This document shows, in pieces, positions 30,637 through 52,733 of a stretch of DNA of 64,000 bases (its first letter is position 1; each line of letters starts with the position of its first letter). Both the position numbers and the translations under genes were made by a program. Under the pieces are notes generated by a model. That model did not search any database. It was not told where the DNA came from and saw only the letters and a list, made by a program, of their open reading frames with translations. The stretch is taken from the NCBI RefSeq assembly GCF_003353065.1, contig NZ_CP027806.1, positions 558,001 to 622,000 on the forward strand, in the 5' to 3' direction. The DNA comes from Cyclonatronum proteinivorum (lineage in GTDB: Bacteria; Bacteroidota; Rhodothermia; Balneolales; Cyclonatronaceae).

Positions 30637-31701
30637 TCAACACCGGTATCGCCCTTGGGCGATACCGGTGTTGGCGCTCAGGCCGGCCGGCCTGAGCGCC
30701 AGCGCGGCATCAAAGGCCTCGTTTTTCTTCCACAAATGGTACATCAGGCACAACAACTTTTTCTGCAAGGCCACATTGGCCTTCATTTTTATCCCGTGCC
30801 GGCTGACTAACCGATCATAATAGCTGTAATATGGTTGCTTCCTGTGCGACAAAATATTGCCAACCGGCATGTACATGGCTGCCCTGATGCGCGCATTGCC
30901 CTGTTTCGACATTTTTCTCTTGCCTTTGTGTTTGCCTGACTCCTTAACCAATATATCGTAACCCGCATAGCTGATCAGCTGGCTTCTTGACGTAAAGTAT
31001 TCAAAGCCCAGCGTCTCTGCCAGCACCGTGGAGATTGTAATCAAACCTATCGACGGAATCGACTTCAGCTTATCCACCTTTTCTTCGATCTCCGGATCCG
31101 AATCCAGATGCCTGGTGATCAGCTTTTCAAGCTTGGTGATCTGTTTATCCAAGGCAGCGATGGTTTGCTGGACAATCTTGCGCGTATCTTTGATAGCGTA
31201 AGCGCTGTAATTGAGAGCGTGAAGCTGGTTTTTGAGCTGGGTCCGCTGTTCTACCAACGCGCCACGGGTACGCGTGAGCTGACGCAGCTCGCTCCAATAG
31301 GGTTTAATGCCCCGCCATAGCTGCAGCTTCTTGCGCGCACCCATCAGGGCTAGCCCGCGGGCATCAATACGGTCGGTTTTGTTCTTGAATCCCTCAGACT
31401 CATTGAATCTACGCGCCTGACTGGGTAAAACCACGCTTAATGCCCATTCGGGGTGGTTATCAAACAGGTGCAGGGCAACCCGCTCGTAATACACACCGGT
31501 GGCTTCCATGGTGATGCGCACCGGTGCAGGCTGTTTGGACTCCCATTTGGTGACCCAGCTGACAAACTTGGGCAGCTCTGCCTGGGTGTTGTTAAACTTT
31601 CTGGAGGAGCGTACACGCTCGGTCTGTTCAACAGGGTTATACTCGAGGATGCAGGCCTTGAAGTCGTCTTTTGAGATATCTATGCCAGTGGAATAAAACA
31701 T
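30637..31701 (-). CDS. IS110-family transposase, element 1
   Basis: A 354-residue DEDD/serine recombinase. N-terminal RuvC-like domain: 'GIDISKDDF' (first Asp), 'MEATGVYYE' (Glu), 'NKTDRIDARGLA' (two Asp). C-terminal Tnp_20 domain: 'SIPSIGLITISTVLAETLG' and 'KRKMSKQGNARIRAAMY', which supplies the catalytic Ser. The gene looks intact. Its last 20 or so codons run through two large palindromes (30638-30700), so the C-terminal tail is probably element-specific rather than family core. Not closely alike to the second IS110 transposase in this window. Confidence 0.93.
   Translation of the reverse strand: MFYSTGIDISKDDFKACILEYNPVEQTERVRSSRKFNNTQAELPKFVSWVTKWESKQPAPVRITMEATGVYYERVALHLFDNHPEWALSVVLPSQARRFNESEGFKNKTDRIDARGLALMGARKKLQLWRGIKPYWSELRQLTRTRGALVEQRTQLKNQLHALNYSAYAIKDTRKIVQQTIAALDKQITKLEKLITRHLDSDPEIEEKVDKLKSIPSIGLITISTVLAETLGFEYFTSRSQLISYAGYDILVKESGKHKGKRKMSKQGNARIRAAMYMPVGNILSHRKQPYYSYYDRLVSRHGIKMKANVALQKKLLCLMYHLWKKNEAFDAALALRPAGLSANTGIAQGRYRC
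30638..30700. repeat. two back-to-back perfect palindromes at the transposase 3' end
   Basis: First, AACACCGGTATCGCCC (30639-30654) and its exact inverse (30657-30672) are separated by only TT. Second, GGCGCTCAGGCCGG (30673-30686) is followed at once by its exact inverse (30687-30700). Both lie inside the coding sequence and end at the stop codon. No T-run follows, so they are not classic terminators; a role in RNA stability, roadblocking or protection from readthrough is possible. Confidence 0.85.
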
Positions 31702-46439: not shown

Positions 46440-48578
46440 TCACTTCACCAGCGTCACCGTCCGCATTTCACCCACACTCCCCGCCCGCATCACCACAAAA
46501 TAGACCCCGCTTGCTGCGCCTTCAGTTTCCCATCGGAGCAGGTGCTCGCCGGTGAGCTGTAAGCCCTCATAGAGCACGGCAATATGGCGACCATTCACAT
46601 CGAAAATCTCGGCCCGGATTTCGGTTGGTTCGCTCAGGGTGAAGGGGATGAGCACGCGCCCGTTGAAGGGGTTCGGGTAGGGCGGCTGCAGGCTGAGGCC
46701 GCGGCGGAGTTCGAGATTGGGATCGGCGAAGGAACCAGCTATGACATCGGTGCGACCCAGCAGCAAATGCGCGTCGGGGTCGGCTTCCGGCGGGCCGGGC
46801 GGGAAGGGCAGTGAGAGTTCCAGGGTGACCGGCTGACTAAAGCCGGGCAGGGTCAGGGTTGTGTCGCGGCTGCCATCGGCGGCGGGGATGCGCAGTTCGA
46901 GCGGAAGCGCCCAGTCCGCGGTGCCGCCCCCGGATGCGGTAGCCGAAACCTGAAGTCTCATCCGGTACAGGCCTGCTTCCTCCTGTGCGGCCGGCCGCAC
47001 ACCGTAGCGGATTTCCAGCTCGGGATGGGAGTCGCCGTAAATCCAGGTATCGAAAAAGTCGCGGAGGTTTTTTCCGGTGAAGGCTTCGGTGTGTGCGATG
47101 AAATCTTCGGTCGTAGCCGAGTCGTAGCGTAACGGACCCTGCATCCAGCTTCGGAGCAGGCCGAAGAAGGTATCATTCCCCAGTAAAAACCGCAGCTGAT
47201 GCAGCACGAGTGCGCCCTTTTGGTAGCTTGTGCGTAAGCGGAAAATGCGTGCGACCGAGGCATCTGGCGAGGCAGGATCAATGCGCTCCGAGGGTACAAA
47301 CACGCGGCCAAGCGGCTCAGCTGTAACCTGCCCGCGTACTCCGCGCCGCCATTCGCGGAAAGCTTCGGGTCCGTCGAAAGCCTCAACGACCAGACCTTCG
47401 GCGTAGGTCGCAAAGCTCTCGTTGAGCCAGATGTCCTCCCAGCGCGCGCAGGTGACTCCGTTGCCGAACCACTGATGCGCAAGCTCATGCGCCACGAGCG
47501 CCCGCGAGAAGTTGTTCATCGAACTCATGGTCTGATGCTCCATCCCGCCGCGCCGCCCGAACATTACGTGTCCGTACTGCTCGCTGAGAAACGGATAGGG
47601 TCCAAACAGCTCGGTGAACAGCGCCATCATGGGCAGGGTGAGGCGGGCCTGTTCGCGCAGATGCGGACTGTCGGCCTCGGGATACACAAAGTTGTGCACG
47701 GGCAGGGAGTCCTGCGGGCTGTGCCGGAAATAGTCTGTGAACTGCACATAAGGCGCGGCGGTGAGCGCAATCAGGTAGTGCGCGATGGGGTAGCGCGAGC
47801 GCCAGTGCCACTCGGTGCGCCCGTCGCCGAGCGGTGTCTGACGTTGCAGTTTGCCGTTGGAGGCCAGCGTGAGCCCGTCGGGGATGCGCGCGATCACATC
47901 GGAGGAGTCGGCCTTTACCGCGGGGGTGTTCAGGTTGGGAAACCAGTCGCGGGAGCCGAAGGGCTGACTCAGGGTCCAGAAGTGCGGTGCCCCGCCCCGT
48001 CGCGTGAACACAAAACTGCCAAAGCCGGTGCTGCCGGGCGTGCCTTCGTAGGCGATGTGGATGAGCCGCTGCGATTCCGTCCCGGCTTCCGTCTCTTCCT
48101 CAAGTTCAATTTCGACCAGAAAATCCACCGGACCCGCGCTGCGTGAAAAGGAAAGAGAAGCCCCGGTTTCCGCATCGGTGATATCCGAAATGTGAAGTTG
48201 CCGCGCAAGTTCCAGGGTGATGCGCGTCGTGCCCGCGGGCAGGTGCAGCAGCAGGTCTGCATGACCGTTCAGGCGCTCAAGTGCCGGGTCAATATCGAGG
48301 TTTAGTCCGTAGTACCCGACCCGGAAACCGGGATCGGCACGGCTGACGGCTTCCCCCGAAAACAGATGCAGGCTGCCACCAGCAAGCCCGCCGCCCGATT
48401 TGGTTTCCGAACAGCTTCGTCCGCCTTCTGTCGGTAAAACGGAGATGTTAGGAAGACCGCTGCCACTCGGGATCACCTCCGGTGAACCCGACTGCGCCAC
48501 AGCACCGGAGGTGAAGCCTGACAGCACACCCATGATCAAAGCGAGCTGCAGCACGCGCAGGATTTGGAGGAAAACCAT
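46440..48578 (-). CDS. exported M1-family aminopeptidase with sorting domain
   Basis: About 712 residues from ATG 48578, which begins a good signal peptide ('FLQILRVLQLALIMGVLSG' to 'GAVAQ'). Peptidase M1 features: exopeptidase motif 'GGMEHQTMSSMNN' and zinc site 'HELAHQWFGNG' near residue 363 with the downstream Glu in 'WLNESFATYAEG'. The C-terminus is a type A sorting domain ('LQPPYPNPFNGRVLIPFTL'), the same class as the CotH-like protein, indicating type IX secretion. Releases N-terminal amino acids from peptides outside the cell. The frame to 48686 adds 36 residues before the signal peptide. Confidence 0.9.
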   Translation of the reverse strand: MVFLQILRVLQLALIMGVLSGFTSGAVAQSGSPEVIPSGSGLPNISVLPTEGGRSCSETKSGGGLAGGSLHLFSGEAVSRADPGFRVGYYGLNLDIDPALERLNGHADLLLHLPAGTTRITLELARQLHISDITDAETGASLSFSRSAGPVDFLVEIELEEETEAGTESQRLIHIAYEGTPGSTGFGSFVFTRRGGAPHFWTLSQPFGSRDWFPNLNTPAVKADSSDVIARIPDGLTLASNGKLQRQTPLGDGRTEWHWRSRYPIAHYLIALTAAPYVQFTDYFRHSPQDSLPVHNFVYPEADSPHLREQARLTLPMMALFTELFGPYPFLSEQYGHVMFGRRGGMEHQTMSSMNNFSRALVAHELAHQWFGNGVTCARWEDIWLNESFATYAEGLVVEAFDGPEAFREWRRGVRGQVTAEPLGRVFVPSERIDPASPDASVARIFRLRTSYQKGALVLHQLRFLLGNDTFFGLLRSWMQGPLRYDSATTEDFIAHTEAFTGKNLRDFFDTWIYGDSHPELEIRYGVRPAAQEEAGLYRMRLQVSATASGGGTADWALPLELRIPAADGSRDTTLTLPGFSQPVTLELSLPFPPGPPEADPDAHLLLGRTDVIAGSFADPNLELRRGLSLQPPYPNPFNGRVLIPFTLSEPTEIRAEIFDVNGRHIAVLYEGLQLTGEHLLRWETEGAASGVYFVVMRAGSVGEMRTVTLVK

Positions 48579-48708
48579 TTTTGGGAATGCAGGTGCCAAT
48601 GCGGGTCGGGCGAAGGGTGAGTGTGTTTGAGCAAAATAGCTGTAGGCACGGCAGTTGCAAAACAGAAAAAGGCAGGCTGAATTCACTCATTCCTAAACAA
48701 CCTTTTAT

Positions 48709-48804
48709 TTCGGAATCTGCCACTCTGGCCCTGCGACCATGCCGGGGGCAAGGCCTCCAATGGCGAGCTTGGGTTTTGTGGAACCGGCATTCCAAAACCA
48801 CTTA
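48709..48804 (+). repeat. partial copy of the 270-bp repeat
   Basis: Corresponds to the central third of the full repeat: CCCTGCGACCATGCC, then CTCCAATGGCGA and GGAACCGGCATTCCAAA. It ends where the terminal repeat of copy A begins, so copy A inserted into or recombined with an older copy. Confidence 0.7.
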
Positions 48805-49076
48805 CCCCCCCGCGAGTCCGTCTTCTCGGAAATGCCCGCACTGAATCCGAAAAATGCCCCAATGTAACCGGCCTTATCCGGGATCTACCAGCTTCGGCCT
48901 GCGACCATGCCGGTAGCTGGGCTTCCAATGGCGACCGGGGACTTTGTGGAACATGCATTCCAAACTTTTACATCGCGGCAGTTCAGGCTTGGTAGATCCC
49001 GGATAATGCTGCTCCGGCTTTTGTGCAGGTTATCCGGCACCTTGCAGCAGCATTTCCGGGATGACGGGGTGGGGTG
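48805..49076 (+). repeat. 270-bp palindromic repeat, copy A
   Basis: Outer ends resemble CCCGTCATCCCGGAAA / TTTCCGGGATGACGGG (left arm here degenerate: GTCCGTCTTCTCGGAAA). Nested inside is a second inverted repeat, TTATCCGGGATCTACCA with its inverse TGGTAGATCCCGGATAA. Copies B, D and E in this window share the layout. No coding capacity. Confidence 0.8.
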
Positions 49077-49164
49077 GAAGATGTTTTAAATGAAGCCTAA
49101 TAGAACTATTCAGATGAATTATTTGCAACAATTGATTAGGTTTGAAGAAAACCAAACTTAAAGA

Positions 49165-49476
49165 ATGAGCAGTATGAAGGTCAGTTATGTCTATATTGAA
49201 ACAAATTATGACAAGTCAGTCTTTTATACGGGGGTGACCAGCGACATCCATAAACGTCACTATCAACATCAGGTTGGAACTTATAATGGCTTCTCAAGCA
49301 AATATCATACAAAATATCTTGTATGGTATGATGTGTTTTCGCCAATTACTGAAGCCATTAAGTTCGAGAAAAGACTTAAGCGTTGGCGAAGGAGCTGGAA
49401 AATTGAGCTTATTGAAAAGACGAATCCTGAATGGCTTGACCTTTCAACGAATGAACCTTTTGGCAGAAGAGAGTAG
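49165..49476 (+). CDS. GIY-YIG nuclease family protein
   Basis: A 103-residue single-domain protein. 'YVYIETN' and 'FYTGVTSDIHKRHYQH' give the GIY-YIG core with catalytic Arg in the 'SDIHKR' helix region, and 'IKFEKRLKRWRRSWKIELIE' with 'NPEWLDL' the C-terminal part, including the conserved Glu. This matches the short UPF0213/YhbQ-type family. It lies between two copies of the 270-bp repeat inside a unit duplicated 707 bases downstream. A role in movement or maintenance of the repeats is conjecture. Confidence 0.85.
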   Translation: MSSMKVSYVYIETNYDKSVFYTGVTSDIHKRHYQHQVGTYNGFSSKYHTKYLVWYDVFSPITEAIKFEKRLKRWRRSWKIELIEKTNPEWLDLSTNEPFGRRE

Positions 49477-49507
49477 CTGACACTGACATGGGTCAGCTGA
49501 TTTTTCT
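49473..49507 (+). terminator. terminator after GIY-YIG copy 1
   Basis: AGCTGAC (49475-49481) pairs with GTCAGCT (49493-49499), followed by GATTTTTCT. The duplicated unit has an equivalent at 50182-50215 with an extended stem, GCTGACAC/GTGTCAGC, then TTTTCT. Confidence 0.7.
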
Positions 49508-49510
49508 ACC

Positions 49511-49783
49511 ACCCCCCGCGAGCCCGTCATCCCGGAAAGGCCCACACTGAAGCCGAAAAAATGCCCCGATGCGACCGGCCTTATCCGGGATCTACCAGCT
49601 TCGCCCTGCGACCATGCCCGTAGCTGGGCTTCCAATGGCGACCGGGGATTTTGTGGAACATGCATTCCAAACTATTACATCGCGGTAGTTCAGGCTTGGT
49701 AGATCCCGGATAATGCTGCTCTGGCTTTTGTGCAGGTTATCCGGCACCTTGCAGCAGCATTTCCGGGATGACGGGGTGGGGTG
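49511..49783 (+). repeat. 270-bp palindromic repeat, copy B
   Basis: Well-preserved ends: AGCCCGTCATCCCGGAAAGG at the left and TTTCCGGGATGACGGGG at the right. Nearly identical to copy A from its middle to its right end, as expected if A and B are halves of a tandem duplication. Confidence 0.85.
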
Positions 49784-49871
49784 GAAGATGTTTTAAATGA
49801 AGCCTAATAGAACTATTCAGATGAATTATTTGCAACAATTGATTAGGTTTGAAGAAAACCAAACTTAAAGA

Positions 49872-50183
49872 ATGAGCAGTATGAAGGTCAGTTATGTCTA
49901 TATTGAAACAAATTATGACAAGTCAGTCTTTTATACGGGGGTGACCAGCGACATCCATAAACGTCACTATCAACATCAGGTTGGAACTTATAATGGCTCC
50001 TCAAGCAAATATCATACAAAATATCTTGTATGGTATGATGTGTTTTCGCCAATTACTGAAGCCATTAAGTTCGAGAAAAGACTTAAGCGTTGGCGAAGGA
50101 GCTAGAAAATTGAGCTTATTGAAAGGACGAATCCTGAATGGCTTGACCTTTCAACAAATGAACCTTTTGGCAGAAGAGAGTAG
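49872..50183 (+). pseudogene. GIY-YIG gene copy 2, nonsense mutation
   Basis: Almost identical to 49165-49476. The codon TGG (Trp 78, after 'RLKRWRRS') has become TAG at 50103-50105, removing the last 26 residues, including the conserved C-terminal segment. The rest of the frame stays open to 50183. A recent duplicate that has lost function or is losing it. Confidence 0.88.
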
Positions 50184-50315
50184 CTGACACAGCCATGTGT
50201 CAGCAGAATTTTCTACTCCCCCCAAACCCGTCATCATATATTAGTTGAGCGGCAAGGATCAGCTGTTTTGGATAAGAATCTTACAATATTAACTTGTACA
50301 CAAACATGAAGGTGA

Positions 50316-50449
50316 AAGCGCGTTGGTACCCTGTGTTTCGTCATTGAGCTTCGAGCTCGTCCGGGATGAAACCAACGCGCTTAACTCCACTAAGCAAGAA
50401 CAGTTCATAAGGCTTCGAGCCAGCATAAATGATGGATATGCTAATGGAG
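50316..50449 (+). ncRNA. bridge RNA of IS110 element 2, with readable target and donor guides
   Basis: Two stem-loops in tandem. Target loop: AAGCGCGTTGGT (50316-50327) pairs perfectly with ACCAACGCGCTT (50371-50382), capped by GAGCTTCGAGCTC (50346-50358). Inside, CGTCAT (50339-50344) is identical to the left target plus core, and TCCGGGATGA (50360-50369) is the exact complement of TCATCCCGGA at the insertion site. Donor loop: CTCCA (50385-50389) with TGGAG (50445-50449), capped by GGCTTCGAGCC (50411-50421). ACAGTTCAT (50400-50408) is identical to the element's right end plus core; ATAAATGATG (50425-50434) is complementary at 9 of 10 positions to core plus left end. RNA ends are not determined. 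Confidence 0.88.
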
Positions 50450-50488
50450 TCCCTCATGATTATTACCATAAATGAAAATAACAATATT

Positions 50489-51448
50489 ATGTATTTTTTC
50501 GGAGTTGATGTCTCAAAAGATACCCTTGATTTCTGCAAAGCGGGTCAAAAAAAAGTCAAAAAAGCGGCTAACGAACCTGCAGGCTGGCAACAGCTCGCCG
50601 ACGCAGTAACTCCAGACAGCTGGGTGGTGATGGAAGCCACCGGTCCGTACTTTCTTGGTCTGGCCATCTTTCTGACCGACAGGGATATTAAGGTTAGTGT
50701 CGTTAATCCGCTAATGATCAAAAACTACTGCAAAGCCAAAATGAGTCGGGTCAAGACTGACCAGGTTGATGCGCGTCTGATCGCTGATTATGCCCTAAAA
50801 ATGCATGCAGATCTGCAGGTGTGGAAACCCAGACCGGTGAATACGCGCTCTATTCGGCAATTAAACACCGTTCGGGAGATGCTACTCAAGCAAATCAACC
50901 AGGTCGAAAATCAAAACCATGCTTTCAGTCTTGATGAGCAGGCCTGTGAAGCTGCCCTGAGAATTAATAATCAAAGTCTGACATTCATGCGTGACTCACT
51001 CAAAAAGGTTGAGCGGAAATTGGATGAATTGGCCAAGGAAGAATACGGTGATTTAATCAAAAGAATTTCCACTATTCCGGGTGTTGGCAGGGCTACTGCA
51101 ATCCTGTTATGTGTCTTAACAGACGGATTCACGCGCTTTGAAAGTCATCAGCAGCTGAGTACGTATATCGGGATTGCGCCAAGTCCGTATCAGTCAGGTA
51201 CAAGCGTAAAGGGCAAAGGTCATATAAGCAAAATGGGGGCTGGTTATGTGCGAAAACAGCTGTATATGTGCGCTTACTCAGCGAGCCGCTATAACCCCGC
51301 ATGTGGTAACCTGTATAAACGTTTAAGAAGTAAAGGAAAACCTCATAAAGTTGCTCAGATAGCCGTTGCACATAAATTAGTAAGACAGGTGTTTGAAGTC
51401 GCCATGACCAATTCAGTTTATGATGAAAAAAAGGCGCTGGCCGCTTGA
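50489..51448 (+). CDS. IS110-family transposase, element 2
   Basis: A 319-residue protein from ATG 50489 ('MYFFGVDVSKDTLDF'). RuvC-like residues: 'GVDVSKD', 'VVMEATGPY', 'RVKTDQVDARLIADY'. Tnp_20 domain: 'STIPGVGRATAILLCVL' and 'GKGHISKMGAGYVRKQLY' with the catalytic Ser. The gene is intact. The frame extends upstream to 50429, but that part overlaps the end of the bridge RNA and is unlikely to be translated. Confidence 0.93.
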   Translation: MYFFGVDVSKDTLDFCKAGQKKVKKAANEPAGWQQLADAVTPDSWVVMEATGPYFLGLAIFLTDRDIKVSVVNPLMIKNYCKAKMSRVKTDQVDARLIADYALKMHADLQVWKPRPVNTRSIRQLNTVREMLLKQINQVENQNHAFSLDEQACEAALRINNQSLTFMRDSLKKVERKLDELAKEEYGDLIKRISTIPGVGRATAILLCVLTDGFTRFESHQQLSTYIGIAPSPYQSGTSVKGKGHISKMGAGYVRKQLYMCAYSASRYNPACGNLYKRLRSKGKPHKVAQIAVAHKLVRQVFEVAMTNSVYDEKKALAA

Positions 51449-51462
51449 CTTTTAATACAGTT

Positions 51463-51610
51463 CATCCCGGAAAGGCCCACGCCGGAGCCCAAAAATGCCC
51501 CGATGCGACCGGCCTTATCCGGGATCTACCAGCTTCGCCCTGCGACCATGCCGGTAGCTGGGCCACCAATGGTGACCCGGGATTTTGTGAACCGGCATTC
51601 CAAGCCGGCT
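51463..51610 (+). repeat. 270-bp repeat, copy C (interrupted by the IS and 3'-truncated)
   Basis: Left arm CATCCCGGAAAGGCCCAC continues from 50219-50234 on the far side of the IS. The copy runs through TTATCCGGGATCTACCAG and GGCATTCCAAGCC and then stops at a run of C where copy D begins, so its right half is missing, as in the partial copy at 48709. Confidence 0.8.
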
Positions 51611-51888
51611 ACCCCCCCCACCCCAAACCCGTCATCCCGGAAAGGCCCACACTGAAGCCGAAAAATGCTCCGATGCTATTGGCCTTATCCGGGATCTGCC
51701 AGCTTCGCCCTGCGACCATGCCGGTAGCTGGGCCACCAATGGTGACCCGGGATTTTGTGAACCGGCATTCCAAGCCAGCTATTGCATTGCGGCAGTTCAG
51801 GCTTGGTAGATCCCGGATAATGCTGCCCCGACATTCTTGCAGGCTATCCCGCCCAGTGCCGCAGCATTTCCGGGATGACGGAGTGGGT
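51611..51888 (+). repeat. 270-bp palindromic repeat, copy D
   Basis: Full-length copy: CCCGTCATCCCGGAAAGG on the left, TTTCCGGGATGACGGAG on the right, inner pair TTATCCGGGATCTGCCAG / TGGTAGATCCCGGATAA. Intact IS110 target sequence in both ends. Confidence 0.85.
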
Positions 51889-52004
51889 TAGGGTTTGGGT
51901 GGTAAAACCGCGCTTTAGTGGTAGTGGGAATGTTTTTTTGATCGGTAAAACGTGAGTCGAATCCTTTACAGAAACAAGATGATGGAATAATTCCAACACT
52001 TAAT

Positions 52005-52277
52005 CCCACCCCAAACCCGTCATCCCGGAAAGGCCCACGCGGGAGCCCAAAAATGCCCGGAGGCTGCCGGCCTTATCCGGGATCTGCCAGCTTCGCCCTG
52101 CGACCATGCCCGTAGCAGGCCTCCAATGGCGACCCGGGACTTTGTAGAACATGCACTCCAAGCCAGCTATTGCATCGCGGCAGTTCGGGCTTGGTAGATC
52201 CCGGATAATGCTGCTCCGACATTCTTGCAGGCTATCCCGCCCCGTGCTGCAGCATTTCCGGGATGACGGGGTGGGGG
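52005..52277 (+). repeat. 270-bp palindromic repeat, copy E
   Basis: Full-length copy with CCCGTCATCCCGGAAAGG at the left and TTTCCGGGATGACGGGG at the right, separated from copy D by about 115 bases that hold no gene. Confidence 0.85.
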
Positions 52278-52332
52278 GTATAGCGGTCAGTGCTTGCTTA
52301 CCCGGCGCATTATTTTATTCGCCGAAAACCCA

Positions 52333-52395
52333 AAATCCTGGAAGTCAACTTCCAGGATTTATATGAATTTTGGAAGTTCACTTCCGAAATTTGAA
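52333..52395. repeat. tandem pair of GGAAGT palindromes
   Basis: AAATCCTGGAAGT (52333-52345) and its exact inverse (52348-52360) around CA. Directly after comes AATTTTGGAAGT with the near-inverse ACTTCCGAAATTT. The shared half-site GGAAGT suggests a repeat family or paired protein sites upstream of the DUF4143-ATPase fragment. Confidence 0.65.
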
Positions 52396-52412
52396 TTTTA
52401 CTTGCAAACAAA

Positions 52413-52733
52413 TCCCGACTCAACCCCTTAAGCGCCCGCGAGGATAGCGGGGCCCTGTGGGAGAACTTCTGCGTGAGCGAGCGCATGAAGGCGCTGCACA
52501 ACCAACGGCAGTTTCCGAACAGCTTCTTCTGGCGCACCTACGATCGCAAAGAAATTGATTACCTCGAAGAAGCCGGCGGCCGGCTCCCGGCCTTTGAATT
52601 CAAATGGAACCCCAACGCCAAAGCCCGCAAGCCCGCTGCGTTTTTTGAAACTTACCCCAATAGCAGTTTTGAAGTGATTACGCAGGAAAGCTACCGGGGA
52701 TTTTTGATGGGTGATGGGTTGCAAACATTCTAA
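52413..52733 (+). pseudogene. C-terminal fragment of an ATPase with DUF4143
   Basis: In frame from about 52413: 'NPLSAREDSGALWENFCVSE' then 'FFWRTYDRKEIDYLEE' and 'LPAFEFKWNPNAKARKP', the end of the AAA+/DUF4143 family common in Bacteroidota. The AAA+ part (about 300 residues) is missing; no start codon with a ribosome site is seen. A remnant. Confidence 0.75.

Follow-up and report, generated by a model that had tools for sequence, protein, structure and literature searches.

The window, the whole stretch of 64,000 nucleotides of Cyclonatronum proteinivorum DNA analysed here, contains an insertion sequence (IS) of the IS110 group that is very probably directed to the end of a dispersed repeat by a bridge RNA produced from its own left non-coding end. 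This reading is based on the gene family, the junctions, the genomic copies and the matching of the guides with target and donor, together with the covariation of these matches, all of which are shown by the sequences. A guide RNA aimed at a multi-copy repeat had been proposed in an initial annotation, whose observation is confirmed and whose interpretation is largely supported: the guide matches the target in the window element and, independently, in dozens of relatives.

The IS110-family element and its junctions

The element and its parts are the following:
50235..51465, + strand, IS110-family element of 1,231 bp, with one right-end CAT counted (junctions read directly and aligned with two other copies)
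50225..50234, + strand, left target half AACCCGTCAT, the end of the interrupted repeat copy C (junction reading)
51463..51471, + strand, right target half CATCCCGGA (junction reading)
50429..51448, + strand, transposase with DEDD_Tnp_IS110 and Transposase_20 domains, the likely real start being 50489 (MYFFGVDVSK)

Both the N-terminal DEDD domain (PF01548, E 6e-22) and the C-terminal Transposase_20 domain (PF02371, E 7e-22) of the transposase scored above the cut-off, and the protein reached 214 bits (cut-off 140) against the NCBI model NF033542, 'IS110 family RNA-guided transposase'. Its relatives of known structure in the PDB are IS621 and ISCro4. The non-coding left end has about 190-250 bp, depending on the start codon, and on the right there are 17 bp from the stop codon to the junction core. 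The left junction is AACCCGTCAT / CATATATTAG and the right junction ATACAGTT / CATCCCGGAAAGG; the flanks, CCGTCAT on the left and CATCCCGGA on the right, correspond to the end of a dispersed repeat of about 263 bp. The target duplication is limited to a short core, with TCAT common to both junctions, and in most relatives of the element this core is CAT. Judged from its sequence, the element is assigned to the IS110 group, because it combines the two domains, a long left and a short right end, guide matches in two loops and a short core.

Predicted bridge RNA

A non-coding RNA with a target loop (left and right target guides) followed by a donor loop (left and right donor guides) is predicted upstream of the transposase gene, and this prediction is supported by the following features:
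50318..50380, + strand, target-binding stem-loop, outer stem 50318-50327 with 50371-50380 (fold, positions and alignment of 20 relatives)
50336..50344, + strand, left target guide TTTCGTCAT, ending in CGTCAT, the same six bases as the left target
50345..50359, + strand, inner hairpin separating the two target guides, with a covarying stem
50360..50369, + strand, right target guide TCCGGGATGA, exact reverse complement of TCATCCCGGA
50400..50408, + strand, left donor guide ACAGTTCAT, identical to the right end of the element plus CAT
50427..50435, + strand, right donor guide AAATGATGG, in which ATGATG is complementary to the CATCAT of the left junction (sequence match)

Both arms of the target loop match the flanks of the element, CGTCAT on the left and the complement of TCATCCCGGA on the right. 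In the alignment of 20 relatives three base pairs of the inner hairpin covary, each changed on both sides in 3-7 of the 20 sequences. The consensus structure obtained from the relatives' alignment has only 6 pairs, and the single-sequence fold of the left end was no better than those of shuffled sequences (z -0.93). An Rfam scan of positions 48500-52500 gave nothing credible, its 5 matches being all far below the gathering scores.

Relatives and guide-target covariation

Close homologues of the transposase were found in none of the 10 other genomes of the family at E <= 1e-60, and a search of the phylum (394 genomes, E <= 1e-70) matched only three other genomes, all about 41-43% identical. No close homologue was found in the viral contigs or in a single-sequence scan of the named genomes, and among plasmids the best identity was 38%. 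A scan of the named genomes with an alignment as query yielded 312 relatives, the best 80 of which were kept (36-44% protein identity), and the phylum search added more. When fixed end motifs were applied to these best 80 of the 312 loci, the right end was recognized in 73 and the left end in 72, with GTCAT at the left junction in 64 of the latter. The left flanks are mostly CGTCAT or TGTCAT, and flanks other than GTCAT are found in L055, L068, L096 and L129; L055 corresponds to Aliifodinibius salipaludis (Balneolales), and the same IS locus is carried by genome G154, from the order of the source organism.

Guide arms were read from hairpin geometry without using the target sequence. The scan covered 114 loci (duplicates included), 91 of which gave the ends and a guide, resulting in 74 unique insertions; the 23 loci dropped lacked a right-end motif (18) or a readable guide (5), and some of them have other ends and may aim elsewhere. 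Right flanks of at least 9 nt were available for 67 unique insertions, representing 40 guide types. A strict hairpin rule missed several elements, and a looser rule with the outer helix was used for the statistics. The observed guide-target score is lowered because known mis-picks were left in, namely L072, L074, L088 (wrong ATG), L106 (wrong right end) and L141 (outside the clade); the true right end of L106, TGCGA, agrees with its guide.

Over the 40 guide types, each guide agreed with its own right target at an average of 4.33 of the five bases beyond CAT, compared to a mean of 2.48 (sd 0.16, maximum 3.13) in permuted guide-target pairings, 0 of 20,000 of which reached 4.33. Because relatedness could inflate the permutation result, 13 pairs of near neighbours with different guides, chosen by the authors, were compared, and the presence of each guide next to the ATG in its locus was checked. 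At the 22 positions at which these pairs differ, the guide agreed with its own target in 42 of 44 cases and with that of the partner in 1 of 44. In the left guide, position -3 follows the target in 20 of 27 cases versus 9.6, and position -4 in 16 of 27 versus 8.9; positions -1 and -2 (GT) hardly vary among relatives. The donor guide also follows the left end where this is readable (CCTA/AGGAT in 10 cases, CGTA/ACGAT in 3 and CATA/ATGATG in 1).

It might be thought that the recombinase itself reads GTCAT in the DNA, and that the RNA loops resemble the flanks by chance or through a copied target, since GTCAT is nearly invariant in the targets (64 of the 70 unique left ends), as a protein-read motif would be. 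This is improbable, however, because in each element the right half and positions -3 and -4 change along with the RNA loop, and because a covarying hairpin brackets the target loop and a matching donor loop comes after it; moreover, the guide of IS621 has been proven by experiment, according to the part of PMC11208160 that describes it.

On a tree of the relatives, built with a quick method, SH-aLRT support only and nine guide labels set by eye, the right guide changed at least 30 times. The elements with GTCAT include a group of 53 rows with SH-aLRT support of 93, and the window element is placed provisionally on a long branch outside this group. Most relatives' sites look like palindromic repeats similar to CGTC-REPs, since the inverse of their own first stem bases was found within 52 nt of the right flank in 39 of 66 insertions versus 4.8 expected; examples are GTCATTGCGAGG...GAAGCAATC, GTCATTTCGA...GAAATC and GTCATCTCGAC...GAGATC. 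The word YGTCATNNCGA is abundant in Sphingobacterium sp. CZ-2 (674 versus 27 in the control) and Polaribacter sp. Hel1_85 (113 versus 21), and at or below background in other hosts, such as G404, G411, G415, G417 and G424.

Some of these relatives show particular arrangements. Seven copies in Polaribacter sp. Hel1_85 (L058-L062, L067, L098) share one guide, CATTGCGAA, and are inserted in TGCGA, TCCGA, TACGA and TTCGA repeats, one mismatch being tolerated at the second base beyond CAT. In Sphingobacterium sp. CZ-2, L103, L112 and L113 are mosaics of adjoining GTCAT repeat types (TGCGAGG, CCTGAG, GCTGAG, GGTGAG). Three further elements, L089, L127 and L132, from Limimorpha and two Bacteroidales MAGs, combine a GTCAT left junction with a right end that reads ACAGTTCTT, with CTT instead of CAT. 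The right guide of L089 predicts CATTCCCG, with CAT, and its flank is CTTTCCCGCGTAGGCGGGAATC, a dRS3-like palindrome; this may be a donor/target mismatch at the exchange point, which could serve to place the core.

IS copies in the source genome

A search with the transposase revealed three close copies in the genome, the window element being copy A. The other two are the following:
G000:C1:2639502-2640518, IS copy B, transposase protein identical to that of copy A, inserted in another copy of the dispersed repeat at the same base as A
3610057-3611013, minus strand, IS copy C, at GGTCAT^CATCCCGAA of another GTCATCC-type repeat

All three copies interrupt a GTCATCCCG repeat end, and therefore they are not located mainly outside repeats, in line with the initial annotation. 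It also proposed to check whether every IS copy interrupts the same repeat position: A and B do so, at an identical base, and C lies in a different repeat, with a guide changed to match. The predicted targets are CCGTCATCCCGGA for the A-type RNA and GGTCATCCCGAA for the C-type RNA. An uninterrupted copy of the target repeat of IS copy C is found about 450 bp away; the word GTCATCCCGAA of this target occurs 37 times in the genome versus 3 for the control, and the exact 15-mer target has just one other occurrence, beside copy C.

Copies A and C show 13 differences in about 263 left-end positions and 4 in the 960 positions of the rest of the element. Within the guide arms only two differences separate C from A/B, namely one additional G in the left arm of C and a C-to-T change in its right arm, and both reproduce the two target differences in the guided stretch. 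IS copy C has also a 1-base insertion close to the likely start codon, which may have left it inactive. Natural re-direction, in which guide and target change between relatives, has been described for ISEc11 and ISXne4 (seekRNA) in the portion of Siddiquee et al. 2024 (PMC11187229) considered here; whereas those are separate IS1111-group elements with 72% identical transposases, in the present case copies about 99% identical within one genome were also re-directed, by one insertion and one substitution.

Passive spread, in which the IS inserted once and was then copied along with the multiplying repeat, would fit with the repeats being tandem and duplicated around the window element. It is very improbable in view of copy B, which lies at a distant site in a repeat only about 75% identical to the query repeat and is consequently taken as a separate insertion, and yet has a transposase identical to that of A, so that the repeats had diverged before these IS copies arose. 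Furthermore, IS copy C is inserted in another repeat with a guide of its own.

The dispersed repeat at the landing site

Separate insertions guided to repeat ends, as preferred here, involve a repeat with these copies around the element, located by word and BLAST matches:
48818..49072, + strand, dispersed repeat copy with a degenerate left end
49523..49779, + strand, dispersed repeat copy B
51462..51611, + strand, right-hand remainder, matching repeat positions 9-158 only, of repeat copy C, which is both interrupted and partial
51624..51886, + strand, dispersed repeat copy D, with two inverted REP-like units
52012..52274, + strand, dispersed repeat copy E

In the window, CCGTCATCCCGGA is exact at 49524 (+), 49762 (-), 51629 (+), 51869 (-), 52017 (+), 52257 (-) and 49055 (-). 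These sites agree with the earlier description of a repeat end present on the left of copies B, D and E and inverted on their right, the length then given, 270 bp, being corrected to about 263 bp. With up to 2 mismatches there are 11 sites in the window versus 1.5 expected, a number reached in 0 of 100 shuffles. The repeat is well represented in the rest of the genome (4.29 Mb), as the targeting of a multi-copy repeat implied: the 13-mer CCGTCATCCCGGA occurs 46 times versus 0 for the reversed control, a BLAST search with the whole repeat (E <= 0.001) gave 63 matches, 40 of the 58 first-look candidates having been scored, and the wider word GTCATCCYGR occurs 260 times versus 9 in the control.

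A full copy consists of two inverted units, each starting with CCGTCATCCCGGAAA and ending with TTATCCGGGATCTRCCA. CGTC-tagged REPs are characterized, in the part of Di Nocera et al. 2013 (PMC3733652) used here, by a CGTC or TGTC tag that leads into AT at the stem base, a stem of 8-9 bp, a loop of 4-5 nt and a CCA tail. Both units of copies B, D and E show this arrangement of tag and AT, the stem of ATCCCGGA with TCCGGGAT has the expected 8-9 bp (often only about 5 bp in the repeats of the relatives), and the tail after the stem is CTACCA or CTGCCA (CTRCCA). The loop, unlike that of the CGTC-tagged REPs, has about 45 nt, and for this reason the repeat is named 'CGTC-REP-like' and has not been filed as a member.

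That the repeat is a non-autonomous derivative (MITE) of the window IS, with a common end due to ancestry, is hardly credible even though the ends of the repeat are inverted and one of them is precisely where the IS is located, because the IS ends (CATATATTAG..., ...ATACAGTT) are unlike the repeat ends, no repeat family connects IS and repeat beyond the junction, and the IS copies target two different repeat types.

Elsewhere in the genome, GTCATCC repeat ends form regular tandem arrays (G000:C1:749573-751925, 3222458-3225001 and 1403356-1405264) with steps of about 362, 845 and 550 bp. In the window, a 707-bp tandem duplication contains two single-domain GIY-YIG genes (49165-49476 and 49872-50180) in alternation with the repeats; the genes are 97% alike, and the second has an in-frame TAG. 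A genome search for GIY-YIG genes gave only two matches, both in this duplication and none elsewhere, and these genes were therefore rejected as a driver of the repeat in the source genome.

Comparison with known systems

IS621 was reportedly the subject of work by Choi et al. in 2003, as its title indicates. IS4321/IS5075, which belong to the IS1111 group of the wider family, reportedly target the terminal inverted repeats of other mobile elements, namely the ends of the Tn21 family (Partridge and Hall, 2003).

In the sections of Durrant et al. 2024 (PMC11208160) that concern it, IS621 of E. coli (IS110 group) has a bridge RNA with the target loop first and the donor loop second and inserts at a fixed place in REP sequences. 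The window element shares with it the DEDD and Transposase_20 recombinase, the long left end and the two-loop guide RNA ahead of the gene (PMC11208160), as well as the landing in the tag end of a REP, the IS621 target ATCAGGCCTAC carrying, in our own reading, the GTAG tag of the E. coli REPs reversed. Unlike IS621, the target of the window element is a CGTC/TGTC tag plus AT, the core lies within CAT and not CT (PMC11208160), the right guide reads at least 5 bases beyond CAT, and the protein is only distantly alike (PDB match, E 4e-29).

ISPa11, ISPpu9, ISPpu10, ISRm19 and a Neisseria Piv-type IS110 element are also inserted in or near REPs according to the portion of Tobes and Pareja 2006 (PMC1525189) consulted, with ISRm19 in 4 of 4 cases in S. 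meliloti and the Neisseria MC58 element in 3 of 5. Those elements are from hosts other than that of the window element, and, as far as that portion of the paper goes, no guide RNA was known in 2006. The initial annotation, which compared the case with IS621 and called the repeat unrelated, is to be corrected in two points: the repeat is formed by two inverted REP-like units, and IS110 elements aimed at REPs are known well beyond IS621 (PMC1525189). According to Di Nocera et al. (PMC3733652), CGTC repeats show no association with transposase genes except in a few fortuitous cases, and S. meliloti is named among their hosts; yet ISRm19 and the Neisseria Piv-type element are found in or near REPs (PMC1525189) in species named in that paper. 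Taken together, IS621 and the present element suggest that different IS110 lineages have adopted as addresses the tag ends of the GTAG as well as the CGTC superfamily of REPs.

Proposed mechanism and clade

In the mechanism that we infer, the bridge RNA would be expressed from the left non-coding end of the element. Its first loop would read the target by base pairing, with the 5' arm CGTCAT corresponding to the repeat tag and the 3' arm TCATCCCGGA to the first arm of the repeat stem, and its second loop would read the element's own ends, ACAGTTCAT and CATCAT. A circular form of the element would then be joined to the end of the repeat by the DEDD recombinase, through a short core that both have in common, presumably within CAT. 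Since the repeat that carries the target at its end is multi-copy, the element would find the same landing site dozens of times, and it is plausible that these are 'safe sites' from which the IS benefits.

The window element is similar to a wider IS110 clade, of which it is probably a member and whose left guide is fixed on GTCAT, with the right guide tracking the repeat type. GTCAT would be the common tag of CGTC/TGTC-tagged palindromic repeats, and the right guide would mutate to follow the type of repeat. There is about an even chance that this clade, which is widespread in Bacteroidota and Balneolota and has single members whose labels name other phyla, specialises on such repeats, one half-guide being frozen on the common tag and the other re-addressed repeatedly by point mutation to the abundant stem type of the host. 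If so, the element would have its niche in these repeats, and its recombinase might in addition catalyse recombination between them. Such a wide clade with a fixed tag-reading half-guide and a repeat-tracking half appears to be new so far as the literature was searched; no description of the clade or of fixed and variable half-guides was found in the open-licence literature other than preprints, which is weak evidence of novelty. The window element, its copies and its relatives offer a natural series of re-addressed predicted bridge RNAs, including near-identical copies in one genome that differ by two target-matched changes, and provide material for testing natural guide change, the tolerance of mismatches in the right arm and REP-type repeats as havens for RNA-guided elements.

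A second IS110 family

Another IS110 element (about 29% identity) is present in the window at 30694-31521 (-) and in six further copies in the genome (L012-L018), making 7 copies. A search for an empty site of this family gave only 1 match, with 3 mismatches, and consequently the common flanks of its copies may in part belong to the element or to a further repeated target. On the left, a G-rich stretch that ends in GAA(A)CTCCGAGAGCATCAC or similar is common to all flanks; on the right, 6 of the 7 flanks have CCCAAATC..CCTTGCTTT in common, preceded by a variable stretch.
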